Positions 4,701 through 64,000 of a stretch of 64,000 nucleotides of DNA are shown here, in pieces. The stretch spans positions 186,001 to 250,000 of the forward strand of contig CAJNDS010002370.1 in assembly GCA_905221605.1 (NCBI GenBank), read 5' to 3'. Positions within the stretch are counted from its first letter, which is position 1. The number at the start of each line of letters is the position of its first letter. A program made the position numbers and the translations under genes. Source of the DNA: Symbiodinium natans (lineage: Eukaryota > Sar > Dinophyceae > Suessiales > Symbiodiniaceae). The notes below the pieces were generated by a model. The model was not told where the DNA came from. It did no database searches and saw only the letters and a program-made list of their open reading frames with translations.

Positions 4701-6517
4701 CTGAAACCGAAGCATGGTCAGAAGAACTGCCAAGCGACAGCTACTTCAAGTCCATCAATCTGACGGCTTTGATGCGCTGTGTTCGGTCTTATGTTGGGAC
4801 TGTACATTCACAGCAATCTAGGAGGTGTGCCCAAGAGTTAGACAAACGAGTTGGCTCCTCTCACTTCGATTTCCGAATTGGGGCATGGCGTCTAAAAAAG
4901 GGAGGTCTGTGAAAAACATGACAAAACAATAGTTCTCAAAAGGTTCCGCAATTGTCGGGGCTCAAAGCACCACGAGCCGCTAGGCCCTTTAAGCTTTAGG
5001 CCCGTTAGGCCTTTTGGGGCCTTTAGGGCCAAGCAAATCCATAGAACCTGAAAGAGCGTATGCTGGGTTTCTGCCCACCGGAAAATTTTGTCCGGTCTCC
5101 GCTTCGCGGGATGCACACGGCATGTGAGATTCGGGCGTCGACCGGATAGCGCTGTGCGAATTTGTTGATCAACATGACTCGACTCAAGGACTTGTCGGTC
5201 ACTTCAAACTGCTGTTTTTTTCGTCGTAGTGGTAAATTGAATTTAAAGGATGTCAGAACCGTGGCGCCAACATGATATGCAGAATCGTGAGACGCACGGG
5301 ACAAGAAGCCCGGTTCCAACTTCCACATCCATTCAACACCAATACCACACCCATTCTACCTTGTCCGGCCTCTTTCAGAAGAACCTTGGGAATGCTCTTG
5401 GCCTCACAGTTGACAGCGTCTGAATGGAACCATCCCCAACCATGCACCACATACGCAACTGGCCTCATGCACTCCACGAACCTGATCACGGAACCAACTG
5501 ACTCAAATGATTCAACTCAAATGACTCAAATGACTCAAATGACTCACATGACCGCGACACTCTCGAAAAGAAAAACTGTCTAAGCAGGAGACATAAGCCA
5601 CACAGCAGTCAGGACTTGCTGCGACTGCCTCGATGCAACCGAACTCTGCCACAGCACACCAGCTGACAGGTTTGGGTGCTTTGGGTCTTGGCTTGGGCCC
5701 TGGCTGAGAAAGGCTCAGGAGCACCCCAGATGGGGAAAAAGCTCAGTGAGCAGAACCTCGTTGCATCCGAAACGCTACTACTGTACTTTGTCGCCTAACC
5801 TGTGGAGGCTCTCTTGGCATGGGGCATGTCCCCGGTCTTGAGGACTACGAAAGTGTCCTTTCTGCCCGAACGATAGAGAGGAACAAAGCAAGAAGGAACG
5901 AAAAGAGACTGAAAGAATTTGAGAAAGAAAGTACGAGAAGAGGAGGCTTCGACCCTCCCCTGCCGAGGCCTGGTTTCCAGGCTGCGTCCTTCGGCCAGAA
6001 GCAACGGTGAGTTCTGGGAAAAGGTTTGCTTTATAAGAGTCTGCAAGAGTCTTCAAGAGAGAAAAACGAAAAAACGAACAACTGTGATTTTCTCGTTGCA
6101 ACCATTCTCATGCTTTGGGAAGCTCAGATAATGTTGGGAGAAGACCCTGCCTCTCTTTGTGTTTTCTTGCTTGTTACTTCCCTCCAGTACAGTACATTAA
6201 CTCATTAACATTCGCTACATGTTTCTGGAGGTTTCAAGGCCGAACGAAGCCCACGAGTTGCGTGCGCCTTTGCCAACAGGCCCCATGCAAGAAGGATCAA
6301 GAAGGGCCCTGCCATGCCCTGCCGAAAAAGGATCGGGCAACTTCATGCTGAAAGCAGATTACGGGTTGTGGGGCTCATCTTGGAGCTGAAGCCAACATTT
6401 TCGCGACCTCGCCAAGGAATGTCGCGGTTGTTGATTCGGTGTTGAAGTTTCACCAAAGGGCTTAGTTTTGGCCACGACCCGAAATACCAAGACATGAGGG
6501 TCGAATGATATATGGTG
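1710..6517. other. Mostly non-coding stretch with weak ORFs
   Basis: No gene is recognised. A short arginine-rich minus-strand frame (ATG at 2306, stop at 2154; basic run DLPRRRRKRQKP) could be an exon but has no family match. Long frames on both strands at 2655-3407 and 2803-3117 overlap each other and carry no motif. A short direct repeat of GAGACAATAG occurs near 2961. A GT-rich tract (TATGTATG/TCTG repeats) lies at 4288-4325. The block at 4975-5035 is rich in AGGCCT-like palindromes. Confidence 0.35.
5506..5550. repeat. 9-bp tandem repeat (ATGACTCAA)n
   Basis: Four to five copies of a 9-base unit close to ATGACTCAA run head to tail. It is a small minisatellite with no visible coding role. 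Confidence 0.8.
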
Positions 6518-40325: not shown

Positions 40326-40672
40326 TCACTGCCACGGGTCTCGAGCCCTGAGCGTTTGGTCCTTAGGGACCTTGCACGCGGGACCGAACCAACCGTCCAC
40401 CTTTTGTTTCTTTGCCTCTTTGATTTCCTCGTAGAGCTCCTTCCCGGTCTCTATGATGTCATGGAAGACATAACCCCTGAAAGAGGCGAAATCAAAATGA
40501 CATCTAAGCTGTGGGTTGAAAGAGGAAAATCACCATTGCTCACGGCGTCAGCCAGCTTGTTTTGAAGACGCGGCGTCCAGCGCGCAAAGAGAAGGCACTT
40601 CTTGTCCTGCAACTGGCAAGCCAGCTCCATTAACGCCGCGCAAAGCGGCCATTTGGTAGTAAGCCACCGTTT
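40326..40672 (-). pseudogene. DIRS-like RNase H, 3' half (split by copia insertion)
   Basis: Immediately after the copia element the minus strand resumes TIKRWLTTKWPLCAALMELA, then FARWTPRLQNKLADAVSNGDF, a typical RNase H C-terminus with the final Asp of ADAVSNGDF. One base change of frame at about 40530 leads to SSFNPQLRCHFDFASFRGY and a stop at 40326. It joins to the 5' half at 48713-49245. Confidence 0.75.
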
Positions 40673-40677
40673 GATGG
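40673..40677. repeat. Target-site duplication (right of element, minus-strand sense)
   Basis: GATGG (CCATC on the minus strand) directly abuts the LTR and is repeated at 48713-48717. A 5-bp duplication is the norm for LTR retrotransposon integrases. Confidence 0.9.
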
Positions 40678-40808
40678 TGCTAACATTTTGAACACTCAAA
40701 GGCCTGCGGAGTCACTCAAGATTCATCGGGCTCAACTACAGGGAGCAAAGTAAAAACACAAATTAGTACAACAAAATGTGGGCTTCTACACAAACGGAAA
40801 TCTTAGCA
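40678..40808 (-). repeat. 3' LTR (131 bp)
   Basis: It begins TGCTAAGATTTCCG and ends TTAGCA in the sense orientation. It is identical to the 5' LTR except for two missing single bases near its start. It is unusually short for a copia LTR. Confidence 0.92.
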
Positions 40809-40818
40809 CCCCGCCTCA
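40809..40818 (-). promoter_or_regulatory. Polypurine tract
   Basis: GAGGCGGGG (minus strand) directly precedes the 3' LTR, the expected position for the primer of plus-strand DNA synthesis. It is short and has one C. Confidence 0.6.
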
Positions 40819-41318
40819 CAGTGCTTCGAGGTTCGGAGTATCTGTGTACATAAGGATTTCCGCCCACATTGACTTCAACAAACCAGACAACTTAGCTCAG
40901 GCTCCCTTTCGACTACGGTCAGCTGTTTCGCTGATCTGCCCTAGCCAGCTCAAGGCCTTTGTGACAGCTGCTGCTTTTGAGCAGGAAGTTCAACTACGCT
41001 ACGGCTGAACTACGGAATGCATGCTTGTTTGCCCAAGCGGAGGCCACAGGCAACAGAGTTGCCATCACTTAGCCATTGAGGCTCGTAGTAAAAAGATTGT
41101 GATGGCCTAGCTGCCATCGCACGAGAGATGAGTCGGCTACTCAAATCAAGGCATTCGGAGTAACACATTCGAAGTGCGGCATAAAAGGGATTGGTTCCAA
41201 AATGGAACATAACAAGTTTCGGCTAGCCCGGGCAAAGTCAAAAAGCATCATGAGCATTACCAAGCATAGCACAACAAGTTGTTGGGTTCGGATTGCCAAT
41301 CTACTGCATGTCATCGCG

Positions 41319-41828
41319 TCAGGGTCTGCACACTCGGCACGGTGTGTAACCCTTCTCCACTGCTTCTCTGCGGCTGATTTCCGTCACTCCATCTGAATGC
41401 TTCAGCTTGGTGCATGCGATGCGATGGAACGCATAGCCTTGTCTCGTGGATACCCAGACATCGGGCACTCGGGCCGGTCTAGCAGCTGCCTTGGGGCGCC
41501 AACGGGCTTGCGGCACCTCCTCGATGACTTCGGAACTCTCGGATGCTGCATGCTCGTCACTTCCTCGAGCTTGCTCATCACGGTTCCGCGGACTCGACTT
41601 TGCCTTTGACCTGGCACCTCTGGCTGCTGCCTTTCTGTGCTCTTCAGGCACATCACTATCATCAGAACCAAGAGGCAAAGGCCGGGCAGGCGTTCCTGGA
41701 GCACTTTCCTCTGGTGCTTTCAGCACTTTGTGAAACCGACCGGCAGTACCCGTGCGTGGACCTTTGCTCAACCTTACATCGGCTTCTACGTAGTTTGCGT
41801 AGTTTCCAACCTGCAATTGCACCGACAA
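41319..41828 (-). CDS. Copia C-terminal ORF with Cys-rich motif
   Basis: Following RNase H, in a different frame, about 169 codons encode a low-complexity charged linker (SDDSDVPEEHRKAAARGARS) and then a compact end: VWVSTRQGYAFHRIACTKLK, SRREAVEKGYTPCRVCRP. The arrangement H-x3-C ... G-Y-x-P-C-x-x-C resembles small zinc-binding domains seen at the ends of some polyproteins. It is not part of the standard copia gene set. Whether it is made as a fusion or separately is unknown. Confidence 0.55.
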   Translation of the reverse strand: MSVQLQVGNYANYVEADVRLSKGPRTGTAGRFHKVLKAPEESAPGTPARPLPLGSDDSDVPEEHRKAAARGARSKAKSSPRNRDEQARGSDEHAASESSEVIEEVPQARWRPKAAARPARVPDVWVSTRQGYAFHRIACTKLKHSDGVTEISRREAVEKGYTPCRVCRP

Positions 41829-41846
41829 TGCTTCTGGCTCATGATG

Positions 41847-43436
41847 TCAGCAACAGCCAGATGCGGCAAACATGCAAACGATGAGCAACATCACTTGCAA
41901 CCCAGCGCTTGCGACGGACGGATACTGGCTCAAAAATTCCCCGAAGCACTCAAGAACTGTGAAGCAAAACATCAGGCACTGATGGAACAATCCTGTGTTC
42001 TCATCACTGTCGTCATCCTGATCAGGCTGACCAGACGATGGCGTCATCTGAAGTGCAAGAAGCATGATCGACAGCATCTGAGCACTTGCTTCACCACGTT
42101 TGGCAAAATGCTTCAAGTCACGACACACTGCTCTGACTGCACGTGCATTCTCGATCATGGCTGCATGCGCTTGTCCAAGAGGGGCATAGCCGTTGTCTGC
42201 ATCTTTGATGCCCATAAGCCCCAAAAGGTATTCGGTGCGACCTGGGTTCAAGTACTTGGTACCCACATCACTCACGTTGCAAGCCGTCTCAACCGGGACT
42301 ACATTTACCAAACCATCAGCTACTTTGGACTGCAACCATAACAGTTTACCGTCAAGGTGGCGCACACGTCCAACACCTGTGCGCATGCATATCGCACGCG
42401 CTGCGGCGTTGTCGATTAGCAGCTGGATGGGTGCAACGGGCCCGAACATGAAGGTCACGGCGCGATGCAACAGGATGGCGTCGATGCAGCCACCGACTGC
42501 ACTGTGGAATTCACTCTCTGCAGATGACAAGGAAACCACCTGCGTGCGCGATGAGGCATGAAGGAGCTGTGAGTTCAGCAGCACCACGCATCCAGACACG
42601 CTCCGGCGTGTCAGCCGGCAACCACTCCAGTCTGAGTCAGTGTAGCACTCAACGATATGTTCAGCCTTCTGGACCTTAAGGCCTACACCGACTGCCGGTG
42701 TGGAAATGACCAAACGATGATGCTCATGCTGGGCCAAGTACGAAACCAGGTGCTTAAGCAGCTTCCAGGTGCCATATGTCGGCTTCTGCATGAACCCTGC
42801 CAGGAACCTTATGCTGAACTGGCATGCAACGGTATCGGACTGCAAATCGAGTAAGATGCCCGTTGCGGACCGGTATGTGGATGCCATGTCGCTTGGCAGC
42901 TCGGTGTCACCAGGGTCATCGGTCGGCAATCTACCTGAAGGAAACGGGGTTTTCCTGGGCCGAAGTTTGGCACCTTTGAGGTTGCACAACTCGAGCAGTT
43001 TATCCACATGCTTAGGTGGCACCTGAATCTCCAATTCAGTGTCCGAAATCAAGCGATGCACTCGTTTTAGGAACGTCAATTCGTCCCCAATGTCTTTGAT
43101 CCACTGTACAGCGATGGTGTAGCGCTCACTTAGCTTTGCAACGACATGTTCAAGCGTATCACCGTGGGCAGTTGCAAGAAGGTCATCAACATGCATGAGG
43201 CCTCCCCCAGTGGCACCTGGGTTCGGCTCAAACTCCCCGCCTGCGCCTTCACTGCTTTCACTTGGAGGCATACGGAACAGCGATGGCATCTCAGGAAAAG
43301 GTTGTACACAGCATTGGCTAACCAGCACATCCTGGAAATCCCGAAACCATCTTGCAGAGCCGTCACGCTGTCCCGGCAGGCATTTGTGTAATTTAAACCA
43401 GACCACTACACCATTACCCACCTTAACTGACGTCAC
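41847..43436 (-). CDS. Copia RT (C-terminal part) and RNase H
   Basis: The frame contains the second half of RT: LHKCLPGQRDGSARWF, then GGLMHVDDLLATA, the copia active-site box (usually YVDD; here HVDD), and later the thumb with YRSATGILLDLQ. RNase H follows with CYTDSDWSG, VSGCVVLLNSQLLHASSRT, SLSSAESEF and LLIDNAAARAI, so the catalytic D, E and D are kept. It ends with a hydrophobic stretch and a stop at 41847. The first half of RT is in another frame upstream. Joining region: the upstream frame ends DAYLTEVKRLIR and some RT sequence seems to be missing. Confidence 0.8.
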   Translation of the reverse strand: MTSVKVGNGVVVWFKLHKCLPGQRDGSARWFRDFQDVLVSQCCVQPFPEMPSLFRMPPSESSEGAGGEFEPNPGATGGGLMHVDDLLATAHGDTLEHVVAKLSERYTIAVQWIKDIGDELTFLKRVHRLISDTELEIQVPPKHVDKLLELCNLKGAKLRPRKTPFPSGRLPTDDPGDTELPSDMASTYRSATGILLDLQSDTVACQFSIRFLAGFMQKPTYGTWKLLKHLVSYLAQHEHHRLVISTPAVGVGLKVQKAEHIVECYTDSDWSGCRLTRRSVSGCVVLLNSQLLHASSRTQVVSLSSAESEFHSAVGGCIDAILLHRAVTFMFGPVAPIQLLIDNAAARAICMRTGVGRVRHLDGKLLWLQSKVADGLVNVVPVETACNVSDVGTKYLNPGRTEYLLGLMGIKDADNGYAPLGQAHAAMIENARAVRAVCRDLKHFAKRGEASAQMLSIMLLALQMTPSSGQPDQDDDSDENTGLFHQCLMFCFTVLECFGEFLSQYPSVASAGLQVMLLIVCMFAASGCC

Positions 43437-44520
43437 CGTATCAACCTCTTGACTTCAGTCAAGTAGGCGTCGCTCACGTCGAGCGACAGCATATGCCATC
43501 CCTGGCTCCGGTGTGTCATGTACAGGGCCGGTACGAGCCTTGTGGTTAGACTGCTCGAAGCTGGCGAGTATAACCCAGTGCGTCCTGGGCCCAGGAAGTG
43601 GTATTCCCGGGCTACTAGGCGGGCACGTCGAATCCACCCGAACGATTTCAAACGCCATGTCACCACGAATTTCGTGGTCAGGGTCCTGTGTCCCGGGATC
43701 GGACCATCGACTTGGGCCAAGACTTTCATGCGCCCGAGCCGCTGCAGCTCGTACTCCATGGCGATCTGATCGATGCGTGCCAACTCTTCGTCGGAAAGTT
43801 CCGGTTCACCGTGGTCCAAAGGAAGTATCAAGGATTGGGGCATGTCAAGGGTTTGCTCTTGTCCATCATCAGCAATCTCAAGATCACCGTCACCAAGATC
43901 CGCCTCGATGTCTTCATCAGGTGATTCGCCATCCACATGATAAAACTCCTGGTCTCCAATTTTCGTGACTGCCATCAGACGAAGCTTCTTTCGCACAGGC
44001 GCAGGCTCACTGCTTCCGGGCGCAACATGATCTGCAGGGGTCTCGGGAGGACTACGGCCAGCCTGATTAGAACCACTAGACCCACTGGAACTAGAACCAC
44101 TAGGGCTGGCCCCTACACCCGCAGGGCTTGGTTCTGGCATTGCGACATCTTCATTGACTGCATCAGCTGAGGCAATCCCCGCCTGGTGAGGCGTTGGGGG
44201 CTCTGGCGTTCCCGCTGCAATGCTTGGACGAGGCAATTGAGGAACAAGTTCGGAAAGCATTGCGTCGTCAGGCAGGAGCCGCTGCTCTGGTGGAGGTGCC
44301 TCGGGCGGCACCACCTCTGCGTTGACAGCTGGCCCGTCATCACCCGCAGGTGTACGCTGCGCACGTGCTTGTCCAACATGGCCGGCGAGGAAAGCTGCTT
44401 GCGAGTATGGCATCTCTCGCAACACAGTGCAAAGCTCATCACTGAAACGCTCGGGGATGCGTCTCACGACCAAGAAGCCTCCAGGCGTCACGCCGACATA
44501 ATGCTTCCTCTCGAAGGCCT
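43433..44520 (-). pseudogene. Copia post-integrase region and N-terminal RT
   Basis: From the inversion breakpoint near 44520 the frame reads HYVGVTPGGFLVVRRIPERF, the region after the integrase core, then a Pro/Ser-rich acidic linker. RT starts at about 43790 (MEYELQRLGRMKVLAQVDG), with the conserved WRLKSFGWIRRARLVAREY and MLSLDVSDAYL (first catalytic Asp). A stop at 43433 then separates it from the rest of RT by a frameshift or small deletion. Frame continuing upstream to 44740 is the antisense of the inverted block and is not real coding sequence. Confidence 0.75.
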
Positions 44521-45024
44521 CAACGAAGATCGTGATGCGATTGAAGATCAGGGTGCAAGCATTGGACATGACGAAAATCAAGAGAGTGACGAGCAAAGAG
44601 CTGCAAATCCGAATGCTGAGTATGTTGCGGTTGACGGCGTACGTCTGAACATGGACTGCACTTTGGCCACCCTTAGGGCAGCATGCGTTACGCTTGGATT
44701 GGGCAAGAGCGGGGGGAAAAGCAACGGTCCTCAAACGCATGCAGGACCACCTTCGCCGGCATGAGCTTTTGGAAAGGCATCATGCAGAAGCCGACGACGG
44801 CGCAGCTGTGCCACGTGAGCAAGCGCCGGTTCGCATGCCCACCGATGAGCAGAGGCGTGCTCATTCCTTGACACATGTTCCTTATGAAGCCTGGTGTCCG
44901 TTTTGTGTCCAGTTCCGTGCTCGCAGCGATCGACATGAAAGGTCAGGTGGCAGTGAACGTACATGTTCCACGTTGTCCTTTGACTTTGCTTACACTGGTC
45001 GTCCGAAGGACCCCGCAAAGAAGC
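44520..45024 (+). pseudogene. Inverted block: pre-integrase and integrase N-terminus
   Basis: This block reads on the plus strand, opposite to the rest of the element. It encodes LEGLNEDRDAIEDQGASIG, VDGVRLNMDCTLATLRAAC, RRHELLERHHAEADDG, then SLTHVPYEAWCPFCVQFRAR (the HHCC zinc-binding part of integrase) and the start of the core, CSTLSFDFAYTGRPKDP, ending at AAGCTT. One frame change lies near 44715. In an intact element it would lie in this place but in the opposite orientation, followed by the core that is now inside gag. Confidence 0.8.
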
Positions 45025-46655
45025 TTGTGGTCCCCTTCAGGGAACAGGTCAAGCATGTTCACACGGGCGGAAGTGGCAATGGTGATGATCTCATGCAACC
45101 TTTCAATCCCTTGGTGAGGCAAAGCACTCTCAGGATCATCAAGACGTGCCACTTCTGCATTCAGCTCGTGCAACTTCCAACCTTGTGGCCCATTTATGAG
45201 CGTCGTACGAAACCTGACATCATGCGCTGCAAGAGCAGTAGCACAGTCGATCAAGCACGAAGAGTTGCATCGGTTGGCATGCACACCTTCAGACAACACC
45301 TGGAACCTCTCGGTGAGTGCAAGGAACGGACCATGAAGCTGCAAAGCGCGCACATCACAGGTGGGGTCACTCATCACAACACGGATGTCACCACGCACAC
45401 ACAAGGAATTTTGCTTCAGGTACACAGGAATCTTGATGCCATCGCGTTCAAGCACAAGATTGTCGTCTTGATCTCTGCCAACACTCCACCCGACACGGTA
45501 GAGCTTGCCGAGTGACAACAGGGGACTCGTCACAGGTGCAATGAGCCAGCGATCCTTCACAGATGCACCGCTGAGCGCAAGGACGGCCTCACGGATGCCA
45601 TGCGATTTCAGAGGGTTTCCCTGAGCATCCCGGTACCAGTGGTTGGAAGATGCAACCTTGCGACCCACATTGGCATAGGCGCCTGAGTCCAACACGATTT
45701 CCACCTGCTGGTGGAGCACATGGTCACCTTGCCACTGGAGGGCACGCACATCACCCGGTGGAACAGGCTCCTGGGTATCATCGTCCCATGACAACCAGTG
45801 TGCATCATCATCACTATATGTCATGTCGTAGCACACACACGAAGAAGGACACATGGAATGCTGCGCGGGCGCTTGAACAGGTGGAGGCCGAATCTCGCGA
45901 TTTCCTTGAAAATCGGACAATTTCGCCTGGGAGGGCGGAATCTCGGGTTTTTGCTGGAAAACGGACAATTTCGCCTGGGGCGGAATCTCGGGTTTTCCCT
46001 GGAAAACGGACAATTTCGCCTGGGGCGTCCTGGCTGAGAACCCAAGAGGAGAGTTTGCAACCGCATGGGCTCCCAGCAGAGGAGCACTTCCTGAGATGGC
46101 ACAGACCTCCATGGCCCTGGAGGCTCGGGCATGCAAAGCGCTAACAAGCTGCACAAACTCATCGTTGCGCCCATCACGCACCATGCGCACATGCCCATCA
46201 CTTGCATCCAGCTGGCAAAGGTCAACTTCAACACGGCGCACAGAGCCCGGGACTGCAGTGCTGGACGACGGCACCGCGGAGGATGTCGCGGCTTGCGAAG
46301 CAGAGCCACCCACCGAGGTGACAGTCGTGGATGTCTCAGCGCCGACGACCTGATTCACTGAGGACTGACCCTTAGATCTCCAGCACTCCTGCGCATAGTG
46401 GCCCTTGCGCCCGCAATTGAAACACTCAATTTGCGACTTGTCGGCCTTGCCTTTGCCCTTGCCTTTACCTTTCTCATCTTTGCCACCTCCCTTTTTATCC
46501 TTGCCCTTAGGTTTCCCTTTAGGATTCTTGCCTCCATCACCCTTAGGCACCCTTGCCTTTAGAGTTTCCGCGACCACCTTTGCGCTTACCCTTCTGAACT
46601 GCATCCACTTCCATTGGCACGACATCAGGATTGACAGGAGGGTCCACGATGCCAA
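44943..46655 (-). CDS. Copia nucleocapsid and protease
   Basis: The frame opens with a Lys/Gly-rich tract and then a CCHC zinc knuckle CFNCGRKGHYAQEC (about 46426-46385). A Ser/Thr linker, three tandem copies of a QAKLSVFQGKPEIPP-like peptide and an aspartic protease follow; the protease active site is VLDSGAYANVG (about 45697-45665). Sequence after the protease (RTTLINGPQGWKLHELNAEV, LFPEGDHKLL) runs to the inversion breakpoint at about 45024; the last 27 codons beyond it are antisense to the inverted block. It is entered from gag by a +1 shift. Confidence 0.75.
   Translation of the reverse strand: MASWTLLSILMSCQWKWMQFRRVSAKVVAETLKARVPKGDGGKNPKGKPKGKDKKGGGKDEKGKGKGKGKADKSQIECFNCGRKGHYAQECWRSKGQSSVNQVVGAETSTTVTSVGGSASQAATSSAVPSSSTAVPGSVRRVEVDLCQLDASDGHVRMVRDGRNDEFVQLVSALHARASRAMEVCAISGSAPLLGAHAVANSPLGFSARTPQAKLSVFQGKPEIPPQAKLSVFQQKPEIPPSQAKLSDFQGNREIRPPPVQAPAQHSMCPSSCVCYDMTYSDDDAHWLSWDDDTQEPVPPGDVRALQWQGDHVLHQQVEIVLDSGAYANVGRKVASSNHWYRDAQGNPLKSHGIREAVLALSGASVKDRWLIAPVTSPLLSLGKLYRVGWSVGRDQDDNLVLERDGIKIPVYLKQNSLCVRGDIRVVMSDPTCDVRALQLHGPFLALTERFQVLSEGVHANRCNSSCLIDCATALAAHDVRFRTTLINGPQGWKLHELNAEVARLDDPESALPHQGIERLHEIITIATSARVNMLDLFPEGDHKLLCGVLRTTSVSKVKGQRGTCTFTAT
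45889..46026 (-). repeat. Three tandem peptide-coding repeats in the copia ORF
   Basis: Three units of about 45-51 bases encode variants of QAKLSVFQGKPEIPP between the zinc knuckle and protease. The units are in frame, and two are almost identical. Confidence 0.85.
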
Positions 46656-48165
46656 GACTCTGGTGAACCTTGGTCACACTCCAAGACGTGGTGGTGATCT
46701 CATAAGCAAGGATGTAAGACCTGACGGATTCATAGGTGGACTCTTCGGTCATGCTCAGCTGCACGTGCTGACGGATGGCCTGAGGGAGACACCTCATTAG
46801 GCTCCCAAGCATCACGTTGGGGTCGATTGCACGACCACTGACGTGTTCGTACTCTCCACAAACACGCTCTAGCCCATCTACCTGCTCCCGAAGTGTCTTA
46901 GACTTTTCAAATACCGGATATGCCATCACGGCATTTAAAAGAGCCATTGCACGAACTTTTGATCGCGGGGCGAAAACGTTGTTTAATTGTCTCCATACTT
47001 CGAAACCAGAACGTTCCTGCACTTGCTTTAGAATCGACTTCGGTTTGTGATGAAGAACGGTGGCCAGTATTGCGTATAGGCGACGCGAGCGTGCGTCGGA
47101 CACAGTCAGCTTGCCCAGCCACAGCATTCTAACCCATCTAGGATGACCCTTGACTTTGCTACGGATGCGACCAAAGCAGGTCTCACCAAAGGATATGATC
47201 TTCCCGTTGTACGGACGACCTGTGACCAACTCAAAGCTGGTTATCCCATGGCTCTTCACGAACCTGTGTGCCATCCATCCGGCGTGCCGCCAGGCCCATC
47301 CATGGATGGGATCAAGAGATCCAATTGCGGTCTTTGCCTCCTTTTCATACTCAGCAAGGATGGTGCATGTCAACTGGCGCAAGAACTCGATGGCCTGTTC
47401 AGCAGGATTGCTTTGGTGGTCTCCAGGCTCAGGGGCTTCTCTGTGTGTTTTCAACCCAAGCTTGGTGCGATACGCCTTCACTGCCGCCTTCAACGCCAAA
47501 CATGTCGGCTCATTGTCACTCTTCAAGGTGACTTCATTGTGCCCCAAGACATTGAGATAGCGACAGAGCTCGGCTGTAGCATAGCGCATCGATTCAGTGC
47601 CTCCTTTCCGGGGCAAGGCCCACGCATTGCGAGATCCAGTGTGGCTGTCAGCAACAACAAGGCAATCCCTGCCCCGGCACAGCCAGTGCCAGTGCGTGCT
47701 GAATCGGATGATGACGACCCGGGTGCTAAGGTGGGCCTCAACATGAGCCAACTCTTCCTCGTATCTGCCATCGGCAAAGATAAGCCAAGTGCGAAAACTA
47801 TGCGCCCAATCTTGCCATTGGGACAGGTCAAAGCCATGATCAGTGGAACCGAAGTTGGCTGGCCTGCTTAACACTTTGTTGGCGTCACTGAAGCCTGACA
47901 CACTAGATGCACCTGCATTGCCTGAAGTCCCGCCACGGACTGCCTGCACGGCGGCAGCAGCCGCTTGCGCTGCAGCCTCAGATGTCATCATCATTTGCTG
48001 CATCATCGCTACCATCTGACTCATATCCACACCACCTGCTGTCGGTGACCCTACAACAGGACTGAAAGGATTCGGGAACGGTCCCTGAGGACCCGCAGTG
48101 GCACCTCCAGGGGTTGCATGCGGTTGCAACTCTGGATCAGAGATGTCATCATCAGCATCAGCCAT
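46543..48165 (-). CDS. Copia gag with embedded integrase core (chimeric ORF)
   Basis: Translation from the ATG at 48165 gives MADADDDISDPEL..., a Met/Gln/Ala-rich segment and a gag segment (FDLSQWQDWAHSFRTWLIFA, EAHLSTRVV). From about 47690 to 47095 the same open frame switches to an integrase core: CLVVADSHTG (first catalytic D), TLKSDNEPTC (second D), HQSNPAEQAIEFLRQ (E), then FGETCFGRIRSKVKGHPRW and WLGKLTVSDA. It then returns to gag: RSRRLYAILATVLHHKPKS through GRAIDPNVMLGSLMRCLPQ and MEVDAVQKG, ending at the TAA at 46543. The DDE triad is preserved, and the switch points keep the frame. A Gag protein carrying this insert is unlikely to assemble normally. Confidence 0.8.
   Translation of the reverse strand: MADADDDISDPELQPHATPGGATAGPQGPFPNPFSPVVGSPTAGGVDMSQMVAMMQQMMMTSEAAAQAAAAAVQAVRGGTSGNAGASSVSGFSDANKVLSRPANFGSTDHGFDLSQWQDWAHSFRTWLIFADGRYEEELAHVEAHLSTRVVIIRFSTHWHWLCRGRDCLVVADSHTGSRNAWALPRKGGTESMRYATAELCRYLNVLGHNEVTLKSDNEPTCLALKAAVKAYRTKLGLKTHREAPEPGDHQSNPAEQAIEFLRQLTCTILAEYEKEAKTAIGSLDPIHGWAWRHAGWMAHRFVKSHGITSFELVTGRPYNGKIISFGETCFGRIRSKVKGHPRWVRMLWLGKLTVSDARSRRLYAILATVLHHKPKSILKQVQERSGFEVWRQLNNVFAPRSKVRAMALLNAVMAYPVFEKSKTLREQVDGLERVCGEYEHVSGRAIDPNVMLGSLMRCLPQAIRQHVQLSMTEESTYESVRSYILAYEITTTSWSVTKVHQSLGIVDPPVNPDVVPMEVDAVQKGKRKGGRGNSKGKGA
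47095..47690 (-). mobile_element. Relocated integrase core segment inside gag
   Basis: This 0.6-kb segment should lie between the integrase N-terminus and the post-integrase region (near 44520-45024). Its right junction, reading SDA|RSRRLY, seems to share a few bases with both neighbours. Its orientation is the same as gag. Confidence 0.75.
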
Positions 48166-48567
48166 ATCACTCACAGTGTCACAGGTACGGCAACGCCTCA
48201 AGACTCAAGCTTGCAAATGCACGCCAACAAAGGATCTCGTGGAAAGGAAACAACAAGGGGTATGCTGCTTGTCACGCAATCCTATGGCACAATGCACCGA
48301 TGCAAGGTCACGGAGGAAAAGGTGGCTTGCCTTCCACCACACACTATGGCTCTTCGGCACGGCCGCCGGAACTGCACACTACGAACTCAGCTTACAAGGA
48401 TCTGTAGAAACCCGAACGGCGGAACCTAAGTTCAAAGCCTGGGCCCCTGAACACAAACCCCAAACAAAGTTCCCACGTGTTCTTGTCACTACCTCCCTGT
48501 GTCGGGATTGGGTCCTGTCCCGCACGAGCCACCTCACAGCCCTGACCAAGGGAAAGGACCGCCAGGC

Positions 48568-48579
48568 GCTCCGCTACCA
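48568..48579 (-). promoter_or_regulatory. Primer-binding site
   Basis: TGGTAGCGGAGC follows directly after the 5' LTR. The start TGGTA and GAGC match the common copia site complementary to the 3' end of initiator methionine tRNA (TGGTATCAGAGC) apart from two bases. Confidence 0.75.
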
Positions 48580-48712
48580 TGCTAACATTTTGAACACTCA
48601 AAGGCCTGCGGAGTCACTCAAGATTCATCGGGCTCAACTACAGGGAGCAAAGTAAAAACACAAATTAGTACAACAAAATGTGGGCTTCTACACAAACGGA
48701 AAATCCTTAGCA
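48580..48712 (-). repeat. 5' LTR (133 bp)
   Basis: It begins TGCTAAGGATTTTCC and ends TTAGCA in sense orientation. It should contain the element's promoter; no TATA box was recognised, as expected in dinoflagellates. Confidence 0.92.
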
Positions 48713-48717
48713 GATGG
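48713..48717. repeat. Target-site duplication (left of element, minus-strand sense)
   Basis: GATGG, matching 40673-40677. Removing the element and one copy restores the RNase H frame: ...NSF-TI-KRWLTTKW. Confidence 0.9.
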
Positions 48718-49245
48718 TAAAACTGTTTCCAGCGTTGTCCGTCCCCGCTGAAATGTTGACCCAAGCTTGTCCATGCGACGACGGCTCAAAGAGAACCACG
48801 GAGATTAATGTGGCCAGCATTTCAAGTGTGGCGATGAGGCGACAGTTCTCGCCCGAGACGTAAAGCCATGGGCAAGTGGCCGGGCTGAGCCTCACCGAGA
48901 ACCACCTACAAGCCTTGGGATCGACGTCGTCAATGGCAGCCCAACCTCCCAGGCAGACATCATTGCCCTCCGCCTTTGCGTCAGCACAGAAGAATGTTTG
49001 CGCTTGTTGCTGCAGCGGCGGTATCTCAGCCATGGACGTGCCGCCTTCTAACGCCCGAGACAAGAAGCGCAGAATCAAGGAGACAGCATGAGGAAGGCGC
49101 AAGGTCTTGCAGTGTGCCACCGCCGTCGTCCAAGCGTACAACGGGCCCAGGAACGGACGAATCAGCGGCAAAGCGGTGCATGCGAAAGCAAGCCTCCCAA
49201 GCACGCTTCTCATGTCAGGTACTTGGAGGAACGCCCTGGTTATAA
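48713..49245 (-). pseudogene. DIRS-like RT thumb and RNase H, 5' half
   Basis: The frame reads LGRLAFACTALPLIRPFLGPL (connection after RT), then TFFCADAKAEGNDVCLGGW (first RNase H Asp), ENCRLIATLEMLATLISVVL (Glu) and NISAGTDNAGNSF (Asp), where the copia element interrupts it. The RT palm is missing: similarity stops near 49245-49260, next to AT-rich repeats. Confidence 0.75.
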
Positions 49246-49289
49246 GTGTAAAGCCAACTTAGCATGTAGATGACGGACTTGTTTTGTAG

Positions 49290-50698: not shown

Positions 50699-50989
50699 CC
50701 CCTCCCGGATGTTTGGAAAGTAGTATATTTTTTTTTTTGGACGAAGGTTTGCTGCGAGAAACCTATATTAAAAAAATATCTACATAATAATGATGATAAT
50801 AATAATAATAAATATATATATATATATATGTATTTGTATTTATATTTATATCTATATTTATATTTACATAGCGTGTCCGGCCCCACCCCCCCCCCTTGCA
50901 TGGTATGCATGGTCAGGCATATAGGGGGAGGGGGGCCTACTGTGAGCACACCCTCTGCAAAACCTGTGTAGTGTTGCGCCTTGGGTTGA

Positions 50990-51140
50990 GGGCCCTTAAC
51001 CCGAAAACCCGAAACCCGAAACCCTAAAAAAGAAACCCTATTATAAACCCTATAAACCCTAAACGCAAGAAACCACCACAACCCCACAGGGCCCCTAAAC
51101 CCTAAACCCTCAACCCTAAACCCAAAACCCTAAACCAACA
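50990..51140. repeat. Telomere-like CCCTAAA block (copy A)
   Basis: ACCCGAAACCCTAAA, CCCTATAAACCCTAAA and CCCTAAACCCTCAACCC words. Also present in copy B at about 60860-61010. Confidence 0.75.
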
Positions 51141-52799
51141 CAACCGCCATGCACCCCGCAGGGCCACAGGGGGGGGGCGGAGGAGCCACGGGGGGGGTTC
51201 CAGAGCATTGGGGGGGGGGGTATAGGGGGGGCCGCGGAGCGCTGCAGGACCATATAGATAGCAGAAGAGCGGTAAGCGCCCCAAGTCCGAAATCTTAGAC
51301 ATATGTAGGGCTGCAATTGCAAATGCCATGGACGGCTGGCGACGCTTCAAAAGCGCTCTGAGCCGTGGCGGGAAAACAAGAGCGCGCGAGAATTCACAAC
51401 TCCCTGCGCGCAGGCTTTACGCGAGATAGCTCCCTGCGTAGCACATGTCTCAGAACATGCTGCGAAGCGGAATGACCAATGCAACATTGGGATCATCATC
51501 TTCCGGTCTGTAAATGCACAATGCACAGTCGCTCAATGCTCGTCGTTGGCACAAAGATGGCCCCCTCGGTCAATGAGAAACGATTCTGCCGATCACGGCG
51601 CTTGGCCCATGGAGAGAAGCATGTGAACAAGGTTCCTGCGTCTGAGACATGAAAGTTCACTTGGCCGACTTGCCTTTCTCCAGTGTTCACTACAACCATG
51701 TCGCCTCTCTTGCATGTCCGGCCATGTCCAAAAAACATGTGGCAGACACTTCCAGAGCGAGGGCAGGACGGCCGGAGAAACTGCGGAAGACAGCGCTGAT
51801 CTCCCGCGCGGCCGGCTTGGGGTCCACGAGCCCTGCTGCGCAAGCCATCAAGTGCGATAGGGAGCTCAAAGCTGACCTTGAAAATCAGGGCCTAATGGTC
51901 AGCACCACCAAAACCGCCTTTATCTGCAGTAACAAAGCCTCGGCCAGAGAGTTGCAGTCCTTGTTGGGAGAAAACGAACCTCCCATCCAAACCCTGGGCA
52001 AAGTCGGCCTGGACTATGCAGCGGGCCAGAGGAGGCGCGTCACTGTGGCCAAAGGGAGACATGGCAAAGGTGGGCGCCGAGCAGGAAAACTGCTCAAGCT
52101 TAGGGTCAAAGGGACGGGCATACGGGTAAGACTTTTCAACGGGTCTATCCGTTCGTCCGCCCTTTATGGGCATGAAGGTGTAGGGGTGGCACCTAAACGG
52201 CGGAAGTGGTTCAGGGGTCTGCTTGCTGCTGTTTTGGGTAGACCCACCCTCGCCAGTACAGACTCCACCATCGAGTTCCACTCCCACAAGGTTGCAGATC
52301 CGACCTGCACCATCATGGCACAGCATTTCAGGGCTGTAAGGCGACTCATTCTCAGTATACTCCTCCAGGGACTGGAAATTCTTCTCCAGCGCCAGCTCCA
52401 TGACATGTTCCTCCGATCCAGAAGTCATGGACGTCAGCTGGTTCGCGTACGTCGCGTACCGTTTCAGTTCCTTGCGCCGCCGCTCGTGCACGAAGCACGA
52501 AAACAGAGCCCCATGCCGTTCCAGCATGTCGCGCAGATGCACATTGAAGTGCTCCTTCGGCAGGAGCCTGTCTTCGCCGTAGAGGGCTTTAAAGCTGCGC
52601 AAATGCTGCAGCACGGCGCGGCGCAAATCGCTGCCCTGTAGGTGACCTGTGGATGCGCGGGACAGCAAGTCCAGCACATCGCAGAGACGATAAAAGCACT
52701 CAGCTGCCAACAACATCCGCCGGTTAGGGAACTGAGGTTGCAAGTCTTCCAAGAATCCTCGCAAAGCTGGGTACACTGAGAGCCTCGGAAACTCGAACA

Positions 52800-52994
52800 G
52801 ATGCTGCGAGGGAAACTCTCAGCAACCCTTGTCCAGCTCGTCTTGTGCTGTCGAGATCGCCCCCGGAGGACGAGATGCTGATGGCCCCCCTCACATAGGT
52901 CCTCAACCTCCAAACCAGCCATGCACGGTTGACACCGCAACCAACTGTTCTCTGGGTTTTCGACCCAGAACGGGATCTCAAGGGCAACAAGCAA
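52800..52994 (-). pseudogene. Retroelement methyltransferase-like fragment (copy A)
   Basis: The frame reads PFWVENPENSWLRCQPCMAG, EDLCEGGHQHLVLRGRS and WTRVAESFP. The VENP...SWL pattern is that of the methyltransferase-like domain of dinoflagellate DIRS-type elements, not of the transposase. It lies between the transposase pieces. It is open here, but has lost one G in copy B (near 63041). Confidence 0.5.
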
Positions 52995-53319
52995 AGCCGG
53001 GAACGAATGAAGCGTGGGAGTTTCCCTGGATTACTTTCAGCTGGAAGCTCGGAGTGAGGTTTTCAATTCCTTCTGGCTGCGGCACTTCGGATTGCAGGAG
53101 TCACGGCAGTGGAGAAGGACGAGCAAATGGGCGACAGCCCCACAGATGAGAAAGCCCCGGCCTTCACCGCTTCAATGACTCTTAGGCACGCGGTCGATGA
53201 CGACCATATCGTCAATGACGATGCCGATGCACGGATAGAGCCGGCTCGGACGTCCATGAAGAGTCAACAGCCGTTGCAGAGAAACTACATCATGCGAGAA
53301 CAAAATTTCAGTTTATACA

Positions 53320-53341
53320 TAATATATATATATATATATAC
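53320..53341. repeat. TA microsatellite within the transposase-like gene
   Basis: A short (TA)n run at the 3' end of the first transposase piece, probably inside an intron. It extends an open frame as a Tyr-Ile repeat. Confidence 0.8.
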
Positions 53342-53901
53342 AGACATAAATACACACCCTTTCTAGACATCATACATAAATCTGCACCAAAATGAACATT
53401 TGCGAGCGCTGAAATCCATGGTCCTTGAGGACATCTAAGAGCAAATTCCTCGACTTGGAAAATACCAGATACGAGAAAGTTATGCATCCAGTCGAACATG
53501 GTCCAGGAGATGGGGAAAACCTCGCTCTCCAGAGTCCCATCGAAAAGCACACCGTGAGGCGCATACCTCATTCCGAGACTGGTTTGCCGCTTTTGGAAGG
53601 CGGCTTGACTAAGCACGTGCCTGTGCCTTGCCAGGTCTTTCGCAGTTGCCCAAAGCCGTGCATCGTTCTGCAAATGGAGCGTCGAAAGGTCATCTTCAGC
53701 ATGGCTCACGAACCATCCACTGGCGTCTGTCACGTGAAGTTGCGAAGAAGCCTTGACCACATTTCTGCAAAACAAGCGCAAACGAAGGCCCGAAGCACCC
53801 ATCGCCTCCCAAGTTTGTTTGATGGCGGCTTCGTCGGCAATGAAACATCCTCGGTTGAACGAGCTGTATTCTGGCCTGAATTTAAACAGCAAAGTTCGGA
53901 A

Positions 53902-53940
53902 CCCTAAACCCTTATATAAACCCTAAACCCGAAACCCATA
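53902..53940. repeat. Telomere-like CCCTAAA block
   Basis: ACCCTAAACCCTTATATAAACCCTAAACCCGAAACCC marks the end of the comparable part of copy A. The same block sits at the window's right edge in copy B. Confidence 0.75.
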
Positions 53941-57877: not shown

Positions 57878-60243
57878 TGACAAAAAGCAACACTTTCAAA
57901 GCCAGCTTACCACAATACTGTCAAAACTGCTCTACCCCAACTGCAAGAGTTGATACAGCACGTTTTGTTGATCTCGAGGGCTTCGCTCTTTCAGGTTGAG
58001 GATGACAAAAAGCAACACCAGCAAACACTGCTCTTTCAAAATTCAGCCAGCATACCACAATACTCTCAATACCCCTCTGCCCTTTCAGGTTGAGGATGAA
58101 AAGAAGCAACACCAACAGGCCAAAGCCTGAAGCCTTACCGCCAGAGACTGCCCGGGCCTGGAACCTTAAGTCAAAGACTGCCTGGCCTAGAGCCCTAGGC
58201 CAAAAACTGCGCGGCCTGGAGCCTCAAACCAAAGACTGCCCTTAAGCCAAAGTCTTAAGCCAGAGACTGCCCAGCTTGGAGCCCTAAGCCCAAGACTGCC
58301 CAGCTCTGCCTGCAGCCTTAAGCCAGAAACTGCCCGGCTTGGAGCCTTAAGGTTAGGGGTTGGGGGTGGTTCAGGTACAGGCCAGCCCGACCCCTTTACT
58401 ATTCTTCAAAACTCAGCGAGCATACCACAAAACTGTCAAAAACGCTCTGCCCCAACTGCAAGAGTTGATACAACACGTGCTTTTTGATCTCGAGGGCTCT
58501 GTTCCTTCAGGTTTAGGATGACAAAAAAGCAACACCAGCAGACGTTGCTGTTTCGAACTTCTGCCAGCATACCACAACACTGTCAAACCGCTCTGCCCCA
58601 ATTGCAATTTTTGATACAACATGTTTTTTTGATCTTGAGGGCTCTGTCCTTTCAGGTTTAGGATGACAAGAAGCAGCACCATTGTTCAAAACTCGGCCAG
58701 CATACCAGAAAACTGTCAAAACCGCTCTCACCCAACTGCGATGTTTGATACAGCACGGTTTTTTGATCTCGGGGGCTCTGCTCTTTTCAGGTTTAGGATG
58801 ACAAAAAAGCAACACCAGCAGACGTTGCTGTTTCGAACTTCTGCCAGCATACCACAACACTGTCAAACCGCTCTGCCCCAATTGCAATTTTTGATACAAC
58901 ATGCTTTTTTGATCTTGAGGGCTCTGTCCTTTCAGGTTTAGGATGACAAGAAGCAACACCATTGTTCAAAACTCGGCCAGCATACCAGAAAACTGTCAAA
59001 ACCGCTCTCACCCAACTGCGATGTTTGATACAGCACGGTTTTTGATCTCGAGGGCTCTGCTCTTTTCAGGTTTAGGATGACAAAAAAGCAACACCAGCAG
59101 ACGTTGCTGTTTCGAACTTCTGCCAGCATACCACAACACTGTCAAACCGCTCTGCCCCAATTGCAATTTTTGATACAACATGTTTTTTTGATCTTGAGGG
59201 CTCTGTCCTTTCAGGTTTAGGATGACAAGAAGCAACACCATTGTTCAAAACTCGGCCAGCATACCAGAAAACTGTCAAAACCGCTCTCACCCAACTGCGA
59301 TGTTTGATACAGCACGGTTTTTTGATCTCGAGGGCTCTGACAAAAAAGCAACACCAGCAGACGTTGCTGTTTCGAACTTCTGCCAGCATACCACAACACT
59401 GTCAAACCGCTCTGCCCCAATTGCAATTTTTGATACAACATGTTTTTTTGATCTTGAAGGCTCTGTCCTTTCAGGTTTAGGATGACAAGAAGCAGCACCA
59501 TTGTTCAAAACTCGGCCAGCATATCAGAAAACTGTCAAAACCGCTCTCACCCAACTGCGATGTTTGATACAGCACGGTTTTTTGATCTCGAGGGCTCTGC
59601 TCTTTTCAGGTTTAGGATGACAAAAAAGCAACACCAGCAGACCTTGCTGTTTCGAACTTCTGCCAGCATACCACAACACTGTCAAACCGCTCTGCCCCAA
59701 TTGCAATCTTTGATACAACATGTTTTTTTGATCTGTGGGCTCTGTCCTTTCAGGTCCTTTCAGGTTTAGGAGGAGAAGAAGCAACACCATTGTTCAAAAC
59801 TCGGCCAGCATACCAGAAAACTGTCAAAAACCGCTCTCACCCAACTGCGATGTTTGATACAGCACGGTTTTTTGATCTCGAGGGCTCTGCTCTTTTCAGG
59901 TTTAGGATGACAAAAAAGCAACACCAGCAGACGTTGCTGTTTCGAACTTCTGCCAGCATACCACAACACTGTCAAACCGCTCTGCCCCAATTGCAATTTT
60001 TATACAACATGTTTCTTTTGATCTTGAGGGCTCTGTCCTTTCAGGTTTAGGATGACAAGAAGCAGCACCATTGTTCAAAACGCCAGCATACCAGAAAAAA
60101 CTGTCAAAACCGCTCTCACCCAACTGCGATGTTTGATACAGCACGGTTTTTTGATCTCGAGGGCTCTGCTCTTTTCAGGTTTAGGATGACAAAAAAGCAA
60201 CACCAGCAGACGTTGCTGTTTCGAACTTCTGCCAGCATACCAC
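57878..60243. repeat. 280-bp dimeric tandem array
   Basis: Half-units of about 145 and 134 bases alternate. Type A starts ACAAAAAAGCAACACCAGCAG, type B starts ACAAGAAGCA(G/A)CACCATTG; both contain CCAGCATACCA, ACTGTCAAA, GCTCT and end GCTCT...TTTCAGGTTTAGGATG. Type A starts are near 58520, 58799, 59080, 59338, 59620, 59908 and 60187; type B near 58665, 58945, 59224, 59483, 59774 and 60055, so the period is 259-288, mostly 280. The first, older part (57878-58110) is diverged and separated by another repeat (58125-58350). Confidence 0.93.
58125..58350. repeat. 33-bp tandem repeat within the larger array
   Basis: Six to seven units built on AGCCTTAAGCCAAAGACTGCCC-GGCCTGG interrupt the 280-bp array. 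Confidence 0.85.
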
Positions 60244-60558: not shown

Positions 60559-60859
60559 AACCCCTCCCGGATGTTTGGAAAGTAGTATATTTTTTTTTTG
60601 GACGAAGGTTTGCTGCGAGAAACCTATATTAAAAAAATATCTACATAATAATGATGATAATAATAATAATAAATATATATATATATATATATATATGTAT
60701 TTGTATTTATATTTATATCTATATTTATATTTACATAGCGTGTCCGGCCCCACCCCCCCCCCCTTGCATGGTATGCATGGTCAGGCATATAGGGGGAGGG
60801 GGGCCTACTGTAAGCACACCCTCTGCAAAACCTGTGTAGTGTTGCGCCTTGGGTTGAGG

Positions 60860-61012
60860 GCCCTTAACCCGAAAACCCGAAACCCGAAACCCTAAAAAAG
60901 AAACCCTATTATAAACCCTATAAACCCTAAACGCAAGAAACCACCACAACCCCACAGGGCCCCTAAACCCTAAACCCTCAACCCTAAACCCAAAACCCTA
61001 AACCAACACAAC
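60860..61012. repeat. Telomere-like CCCTAAA block (copy B)
   Basis: Same as 50990-51140, nearly identical in sequence. Confidence 0.75.
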
Positions 61013-61362
61013 CGCCATGCACCCCGCAGGGCCACAGGGGGGGGGCGGAGGAGCCACGGGGGGGGTTCCAGAGCATTGGGGGGGGGGTATAGGGGGGGCC
61101 GCGGAGCGCTGCAGGACCATATAGATAGCAGAAGAGCGGTAAGCGCCCCAAGTCCGAAATCTTAGACATATGAAGGGCTGCAATTGCAAATGCCATGGAC
61201 GGCTGGCGACGCTTCAAAAGCGCTCTGAGCCGTGGCGGGAAAACAAGAGCGCGCGAGAATTCACAACTCCCTGCGCGCAGACTTTACGCGAGATAGCTCC
61301 CTGCGAAGCACATGTCTCAGAACATGCTGCGAAGCGGAATGACCAATGCAACATTGGGATCA

Positions 61363-63960
61363 TCATCTTCCGGTCTGTAAATGCACAATGCACAGTCGCT
61401 CAATGCTCGTCGTTGGCACAAAGATGGCCCCCTCGGTCAATGAGAAACGATTCTGCCGATCACGGCGCTTGGCCCATGGAGAGAAGCATGTGAACAAGGT
61501 TCCTGCGTCTGAGACATGAAAGTTCACTTGGCCGACTTGCCTTTCTCCAGTGTTCACTACAACCATGTCGCCTCTCTTGCATGTCCGGCTATGTCCAAAA
61601 AAACATGTGGCAGACACTTCCAGAGCGAGGGCAGGACGGCCGGAGAAACTGCGGAAGACAGCGCTGATCTCCCGCGCGGCCGGCTTGGGGTCCACGAGCC
61701 CTGCTGCGCAAGCCATCAAGTGCGATAGGGAGCTCAAAGCTGACCTTGAAAATCAGGGCCTAATGGTCAGCACCACCAAAACCGCCTTTATCTGCAGTAA
61801 CAAAGCCTCGGCCAGAGAGTTGCAGTCCTCGTTGGGAGAAAACGAACCTCCCATCCAAACCCTGGGCAAAGTCGGCCTGGACTGTGCAGCGGGCCAGAGG
61901 AGGCGCGTCACTGTGGCCAAAGGGAGACATGGCAAAGGTGGGCGCCGAGCAGGAAAACTGCTCAAGCTTAGGGTCAAAGGGACGGGCATACGGGTAAGAC
62001 TTTTCAACGGGTCTATCCGTTCGTCCACCCTTTATGGGCATGAAGGTGTAGGGGTGGCACCTAAACGGCGGAAGTGGTTCAGGGGTCTGCTTGCTGCTGT
62101 TTTGGGTAGACCCACCCTCGCCAGTACAGACTCCACCATCGAGTTCCACTTCCACAAGGTTGCAGATCCGACCTGCACCATCATGGCACAGCATTTCAGG
62201 GCTGTAAGGCGACTCATTCTCAGTATACTCCTCCAGAGACTGGAAATTCTTCTCCAGCGCCAGCTCCATGACATGTTCCTCCGATCCAGAAGTCATGGAC
62301 GTCAGCTGGTTCGCGTGCGTCGCGTACCGTTTCAGTTCCTTGCGCCGCCGCTCGTGCACGAAGCACGAAAACAGAGCCCCATGCCGTTCCAGCATGTCGC
62401 GCAGATGCACATTGAAGTGCTCCTTCGGCAGGAGCCTGTCTTCGCCGTAGAGGGCTTTAAAGCTGCGCAAATGCTGCAGCACGGCGCGGCGCAAATCGCT
62501 GCCCTGTAGGTGACCTGTGGATGCGCGGGCCAGCAAGTCCAGCACATCGCAGAGACGATAAAAGCACTCAGCTGCCAACAACATCCGCCGGTTAGGGAAC
62601 TGAGGTTGCAAGTCTTCCAAGAATCCTCGCAAAGCTGGGTACACTGAGAGCCTCGGAAACTCCGCACTTGAACTCTCCGCTTTTTCGGCCATGGACTGAC
62701 TTGCCGCCAGTGAAGTACGGCCAACAGCAGGTGCTGCGCTACGTCGGGGAGGGCCTGGAACCTTTGTCTCGCCGATCCTAGGACTGGCATCACGAACGCA
62801 AGAACTGATTGTAATCCCCAGTCGGAGATGAGATGAGCTCGCAGAATCGCACCTGCTAGCTTCGAACAGATGCTGCGAGGGAAACTCTCAGCAACCCTTG
62901 TCCAGCTCGTCTTGTGCTGTCGAGATCGCCCCCGGAGGACGAGATGCTGATGGTCCCCCTCACATAGGTCCTCAACCTCCAAACCAGCCATGCACGGTTG
63001 ACACCGCAACCAACTGTTCTCTGGGTTTTCGACCCAGAACGGATCTCAAGGGCAACAAGCAAAGCCGGGAACGAATGAAGCGTGGGAGTTTCCCTGGATT
63101 ACTTTCAGCTGGAAGCTCGGAGTGAGGTTTTCAATTCCTTCTGGCTGCGGCACTTCGGATTGCAGGAGTCACGGCAGTGGAGAAGGACGAGCAAATGGGC
63201 GACAGCCCCACAGATGAGAAAGCCCCGGCCTTCACCGCTTCAATGACTCTTAGGCACGCGGTCGATGACGACCATATCGTCAATGACGATGCCGATGCAC
63301 GGATAGAGCCGGCTCGGACGTCCATGAAGAGTCAACAGCCGCTGCAGAGAAACTACATCATGCGAGAACAAAATTTCAGTTTATACATAATATATATATA
63401 TATATATACAGACATAAATACACACCCTTTCTAGACATCATACATAAATCTGCACCAAAATGAACATTTGCGAGCGCTGAAATCCATGGTCCTTGAGGAC
63501 ATCTAAGAGCAAATTCCTCGACTTGGAAAATACCAGATACGAGAAAGTTATGCATCCAGTCGAACATGGTCCAGGAGATGGGGAAAACCTCGCTCTCCAG
63601 AGTCCCATCGAAAAGCACACCGTGAGGCGCATACCTCATTCCGAGACTGGTTTGCCGCTTTTGGAAGGCGGCTTGACTAAGCACGTGCCTGTGCCTTGCG
63701 AGGTCTTTCGCAGTTGCCCAAAGCCGTGCATCGTTCTGCAAATGGAGCATCGAAAGGTCATCTTCAGCATGGCTCACGAACCATCCACTGGCGTCTGTCA
63801 CGTGAAGTTGCGAAGAAGCCTTGACCACATTTCTGCAAAACAAGCGCAAACGAAGGCCCGAAGCACCCATCGCCTCCCAAGTTTGCTTGATGGCGGCTTC
63901 GTCGGCAATGAAACATCCTCGGTTGAACGAGCTGTATTCTGGCCTGAATTTAAACAGCAA
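61363..63960 (-). CDS. Transposase-like gene, copy B
   Basis: Pieces are as in copy A: 63960 to about 63445 (GVLFDGTLESEVFPIS, FDWMHNFLVSGIF), 62692-61760 and about 61705-61363. The middle piece here opens with an ATG at 62692 (MAEKAESSSAEFPRLSVYPA) and has FSCFVHERRRKELKRYA. The last piece is continuous through the T run that is one base short in copy A (SATCFFGHSRTCKRGDMVVV). A splice acceptor GCGCAG near 61707 would join the last two pieces. This copy is the better preserved, although the neighbouring VENP fragment is frameshifted here. Long plus-strand frames at 51649-52641 and 61550-62509 are antisense shadows of this gene. Confidence 0.6.
62663..62863. other. 201-bp segment absent from copy A
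   Basis: The segment contains the ATG of the middle transposase piece. Its ends do not form GT/GC/GA...AG on either strand with the observed junction, so it is a deletion in copy A (or insertion here), not a spliced intron. The junction shares 2 bases (TC). Confidence 0.8.
62870..63062 (-). pseudogene. Retroelement methyltransferase-like fragment (copy B)
   Basis: Counterpart of 52800-52994; a one-base deletion near 63041 separates LVALEI from VENPENSWLRCQP. Confidence 0.5.
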
Positions 63961-64000
63961 AGTTCGGAACCCTAAACCCTTATATAAACCCTAAACCCGA

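Follow-up and report, generated by a model that had tools for sequence, protein, structure and literature searches.

A copia-type retrotransposon of Symbiodinium natans with canonical ends and a re-ordered interior, probably shuffled by end joining after insertion

A Ty1/copia-type LTR retrotransposon of Symbiodinium natans possesses canonical ends around an interior that was broken at six places and re-ordered, probably by DNA end joining and most likely at the present locus after insertion; we give this reading a probability of about 0.6. The element lies in a stretch of 64,000 nucleotides (G000:C2058:186001-250000; G+C 51.7%), hereafter the window, in the interior of a 466-kb contig. It is a single rearranged copy, ordinary in kind and unusual in its neatness, and what makes it worth describing is a balanced multi-break shuffle that can be resolved to the base within one transposon with close collinear relatives. 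The host being a dinoflagellate, the case bears on break repair in a genome of this kind.

The element has the paired LTRs, the TG...CA ends and the short target-site duplication by which Ty1/copia LTR retrotransposons are recognised. Its outer features, and the host reading frame that it splits, are as follows.

48712 to 40678, minus strand: copia-type element, the whole window copy
48580..48712, minus strand: 5' LTR, 133 bp
40678..40808, minus strand: 3' LTR, 131 bp
48713..48717, no strand: target-site duplication at the 5' element end, GATGG on the plus strand (CCATC in element sense)
40673..40677, no strand: target-site duplication at the 3' element end, GATGG on the plus strand (CCATC in element sense)
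48550..48579, minus strand: primer-binding-site-like sequence directly after the 5' LTR, starting TGGTAGCGGAGCG, with TGG as its first bases
48713-49258 and 40451-40672: host ORF split by the element, member of a repeated family

The LTRs share an exact stretch of 123 bp, two single-base indels are their sole differences, and the element terminates in TGCTAA/TTAGCA. These re-measured values agree with a preliminary description of the locus, which had reported LTRs of 131 and 133 bp separated by two single-base indels, the same termini, a CCATC duplication and an adjoining primer site, and had called the element copia-type; the duplication is now backed by the continuity of the host ORF as well. 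Indeed, if the element is taken out together with one of the two duplication copies, a host frame of 255 codons reads through the rejoined flanks, and its product aligns without interruption over the insertion site with a relative on C2485 (49% identity, 223 aa). A protein probe of the host ORF gave 89 matches in the assembly, its own locus counted. Since the host frame is continuous and has relatives, the element represents a canonical insertion into a copy of a repeated host family. The joined flanks, used as a nucleotide probe of the assembly, matched only the window's own two flanks (2/2 candidates), with no empty site or second allele.

The assembly searched comprises 759,417,921 bases in 2,543 contigs, and repeat counts obtained from it are lower bounds. 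Within it the element belongs to a low-copy family: an LTR probe gave 13 matches, which include both LTRs of the window copy (13/13 candidates scored), and a protein probe of the reverse transcriptase (RT)-RNase H region found five loci at 97-100% identity, the next following at 45% (best 81 of 2,040 candidates scored). Besides the window copy, four copies with a coding interior were recovered (C2476, C44, C791 and C171), of which C791 and C171 are interrupted by other sequence and C171 was recovered without its 5' part; C992, C1723, C1780 and C463 hold partial or degraded matches. C2476, C44 and C791 are independent insertions, because each has its own 5-bp duplication. All four copies are collinear across the integrase break points of the window copy. 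Similarly, the gag site that received a block in the window is uninterrupted in C2476, C44, C791 and C992, the copies where it was seen, because the flanking matches lie 39 bp apart in each. Two copies have open frames, with a gag of 598 aa and a pol of 1,829 aa that overlap by about 315 nt. In the overlap of C2476, GGGAAAA heptamers begin at the second codon position; a classical -1 slip needs a heptamer that starts at the third.

The C2476 copy (L009) served as the reference for a block map. Read along the plus strand, L009 has the blocks X1, B, A, C, X2, g, X3; the window copy has X1, A inverted, X2, B, C inverted, X3 and lacks the 39-bp piece g.

40678..44499, minus strand: block X1, integrase C-terminal linker, reverse transcriptase, RNase H, 3' region and 3' LTR (L009 474-4311)
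44500..45029, plus strand: block A', 530 bp, inverted in place (L009 4886-5414)
45030..47091, minus strand: block X2, rest of gag with CCHC knuckle, protease-like region and start of the linker (L009 5471-7569)
45886..46027, no strand: 45-bp tandem repeat of about 3 units, in the gag/pol overlap
47092..47664, minus strand: block B, second integrase part, 573 bp, relocated into gag in element orientation (L009 4313-4885)
47665..47720, plus strand: block C', inverted 56-bp piece of pol whose source lies immediately upstream of the integrase part, 100% identical to L009 5415-5470
47721..47721, no strand: unmatched base at junction J5, fitting neither side
47722..48712, minus strand: block X3, 5' LTR, leader and N-terminal part of gag (L009 7609-8598)

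Block A' holds a SAP-like part, a motif that we take to be zinc-finger-like, and the start of the integrase core; the protease-like region of X2 is likewise presumed from a motif. Compared with the reference, block A has an additional one-base indel. The 39 bp of gag absent at 47721 are present in C2476, C44, C791 and C992. That the integrase gene is split, with one part (A') inverted in place and the other (B) moved into gag, had been seen correctly in the preliminary description, which overlooked the inverted 56-bp C', the unmatched base at 47721 and the loss of the 39 bp.

At junctions J1, J2 and J4 there is no homology (0 bp), at J3 there is 1 bp, and J5 contains the unmatched base. L009 positions 4312 to 5470 are each used once and none is duplicated, one base at J3 being assignable to either side. 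Because the rearrangement is balanced and its junctions lack homology, we infer cutting and rejoining rather than copying, and two steps would suffice. The 585-bp stretch A plus C (L009 4886-5470) would have been inverted in place, which would create J2 and J4; a 630-bp block (B plus inverted C) would then have been excised, the gap sealed, and the block placed in gag in exchange for the 39 bp, which would create J1, J3 and J5. Chromothripsis-like local multi-break rearrangements are repaired by end joining, and the window copy resembles these in its near-blunt junctions, its small inverted or relocated pieces and its little net loss; it differs in that six breaks fall in ~3.3 kb of one transposon whose ends and duplication are unaffected. 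It speaks against our reading that four breaks were rejoined without loss of bases, which is unusually clean for end joining, and that all six breaks fall within the element. By eye, about four of the six break sites have a T|G step, which is too few to use. The C791 copy has a deletion of ~240 bp (L011 about 4868; L009 about 4895-5133) that starts ~10 bp from a break point of the scramble.

The scrambled form was found at a single locus. Junction probes of 951 bp (J3-J5) and 901 bp (J1-J2) matched in full at the window locus only (11/11 and 8/8 candidates scored), and the other copies matched them as separate pieces in collinear order. The preliminary description had proposed a mobile non-autonomous derivative, for which further copies with the same breakpoints were to be expected; as the junction probes match fully only here, a multiplying scrambled derivative is not supported. 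Non-autonomous LTR derivatives such as TRIM, LARD and deletion derivatives occur as families of copies, and the window copy is like them in having canonical ends around a presumably non-working coding region, but they are multi-copy and this form was found once. Judged from its sequence, the copy would instead be a dead end, since the scramble would abolish the integrase and interrupt pol. Within gag, the relocated block leaves the reading frame of gag intact to either side, with block B in its own pol frame, in an ORF of 553 aa. By our own reckoning such frame retention has a chance of ~1 in 9, stops in the inverted 56 bp being left uncounted, and we treat it as coincidence; it is nevertheless a point against our reading, and alone among the features it would suit a scrambled form that could still be translated.

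As to the origin of the pieces, 14 sites divide the compared copies into two groups of two or more, in a comparison where some segments do not contain every copy. At 10 of them the window copy agrees with C791: with C791 alone at seven (four in X1 and one each in A, X2 and X3) and with C791 and one other copy at three (the 3' end of X1, elsewhere in X1, and B). Spread over X1, A, X2, B and X3, these sites suggest that the scramble took place within one element that had already diverged from the collinear C791, and that the pieces are mostly of one ancestry. Against this stand the other four sites, where the window copy goes with C2476 (one, at the 3' end), with C2476 and C44 (one, in X2) or with C44 (two, in X3).

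The age of the insertion is less easily read from the LTRs than had been thought. The element had been called freshly inserted, and what stands of this is that the LTRs show 0 substitutions in 131 bp (upper bound of divergence 2.3%); against it, the indels are shared with other copies, 131 bp is short, and the private substitutions exceed those of both open copies. A 131-nt 3' LTR together with a 5' LTR of the longer type also occurs in C2476 (L009) and C791 (L011), at other target sites. The indels are therefore no clock, being common to the 3' LTRs of these copies, and LTR identity alone is a poor one, since the sole differences between the LTRs are found again in copies inserted elsewhere. 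In standard reverse transcription both LTRs derive from one template. An LTR asymmetry common to three copies points to gene conversion among their 3' ends or to a collapse in the assembly. Moreover, no difference separates the window copy from C2476 in the last ~740 bp at the 3' end, and zero private substitutions in this stretch have a P of about 0.01, the stretch having been picked after viewing the data. Gene conversion is described as disturbing LTR dating (PMC7251063).

Over 7,958 aligned columns the window copy has 44 private substitutions, C2476 14 and C44 18; for these counts 41731-41739 and 45881-46029 were excluded, as was any column that holds a gap or three or more different bases. 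The 44 are inflated, because the nearest copy, C791, is not comparable in A and part of X2; without those two segments the window has 33, against 14 in C2476 (P 0.008) and 17 in C44 (P 0.03). Six segments are represented in all five copies; there the counts are 25 in the window, 9 in C2476, 11 in C44, 18 in C791 and 17 in C171, and the excess over C791 (P 0.36) and C171 (P 0.28) is not significant. The window copy further carries a single private stop together with frameshifting indels; the two open copies are without a break in gag or pol. Silent changes make up 12/24 of the private substitutions in pol of the two open copies, an excess (P 0.004), and 12/35 in the window, no clear excess (P 0.10), and silent versus amino-acid-changing substitutions do not differ significantly between window and open copies (Fisher P 0.28). 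The window copy is thus neither clearly young nor clearly older than C791 and C171.

We favour a scramble that post-dates the insertion over one that pre-dates it. A rearrangement of cDNA outside the chromosome, or at a source locus that has since disappeared, with subsequent insertion by the enzymes of a relative, would account for the canonical and untouched ends, LTRs and duplication, for LTRs without substitution although the body has 44 private ones, and for a flanking host frame that is still open over its 255 codons; the assembly also contains copies whose gag and pol are open. However, the junction probes found no second scrambled copy in the assembly, LTRs of 131 bp without substitution are expected in 23% of cases even if all private changes arose after insertion, and the 3' end, its LTR included, appears homogenised with C2476, so that we regard such an origin as a tentative and rather doubtful alternative. 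Its more specific form, a linear cDNA that was broken, religated outside the chromosome without loss at four breaks and then inserted in trans, is unlikely; if true, a scrambled cDNA would have been repaired by the cell and then accepted by the integration machinery. Autointegration was considered and rejected, as the junctions are without any LTR end. Template switching during reverse transcription, the other origin offered by the preliminary description, is very unlikely: strand switching could yield inverted and displaced pieces of this type, but copying should leave duplicated or missing sequence at the switch points, and here none is duplicated and only 39 bp are lost; furthermore, junction homology is 0-1 bp and four strand changes would be required.

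Misassembly or a library artefact is likewise unlikely, and clearly less plausible than an origin before insertion. The S. natans CCMP2548 assembly is described as a PacBio and Illumina hybrid made with MaSuRCA (PMC8045281). Repeats can be misjoined, and the identical 3' end that the window copy shares with C2476 could represent a collapse. Assemblers, however, join via long overlaps, and the five junctions overlap by 0-1 bp; the locus also sits well inside its contig. In addition, pieces A and B carry 7 and 3 substitutions, respectively, that are absent from the other compared copies (C791 not being among them in A), and because of these substitutions of their own they do not appear to be borrowed from another assembled copy. 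End joining at this locus after insertion thus remains the reading that we prefer.

We file the element as copia-type with moderate confidence; this assignment is supported, several of the family tests being only partial. It resembles Ty1/copia (Pseudoviridae-type) elements in the TG...CA LTRs, the 5-bp target duplication and the CCHC gag and, in the collinear copies, in the order gag, protease-like, integrase-like, RT and RNase H, blocks A and B lying between the protease-like region and RT. It differs in that the window integrase is split with one part inverted, and in that the RT has no RVT_2 match of its own and is linked to the family via homologues in the same genome. Neither RVT_2 for the RT nor an integrase profile of Pfam was matched directly in seven locus or edge ORFs, three C2476 pieces and the three nearer relatives L038-L040, and we take the integrase identity from motifs. 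The C2476 RT piece matches 5/5 of the tested loci that score over the RVT_2 cut-off (L041-L044 and L032; E 5e-19 to 2e-31), and RVT_2 has at least 150 matches in the assembly (150 of 2,237 candidates scored). In L032, an RVT_2-matching RT (C44:25299-26021) lies ~0.8 kb from the C44 copy. The C2476 gag matches zf-CCHC over the cut-off and Retrotran_gag_2 with an E of 0.00095, below the curated cut-off, and the part before the integrase core gives a sub-threshold SAP match; the Pfam search gave no profile match for the protease. A PDB sequence search with two C2476 pieces found no match, PADLOC gave nothing for the RT-RNase H ORF, and neither this ORF in viral_contigs and genome_contigs nor the gag ORF in viral_contigs found relatives, near records possibly having been left out. 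Single-sequence structure prediction of the RT-RNase H ORF gave no usable fold (mean pLDDT 37).

Among the papers found on rearranged LTR elements, titles and abstract openings showed none that we recognised as the present case, from which we make no claim of absence. A search of the window for the spliced leader, allowing ≤3 mismatches, found nothing. Repetitive sequences occur elsewhere in the window: 58401-60243 is a tandem array with a unit of ~280 bp in 6.6 copies, and 50699-53932 and 60561-64000 are two direct copies with ~99% identity, one of which reaches the window end.
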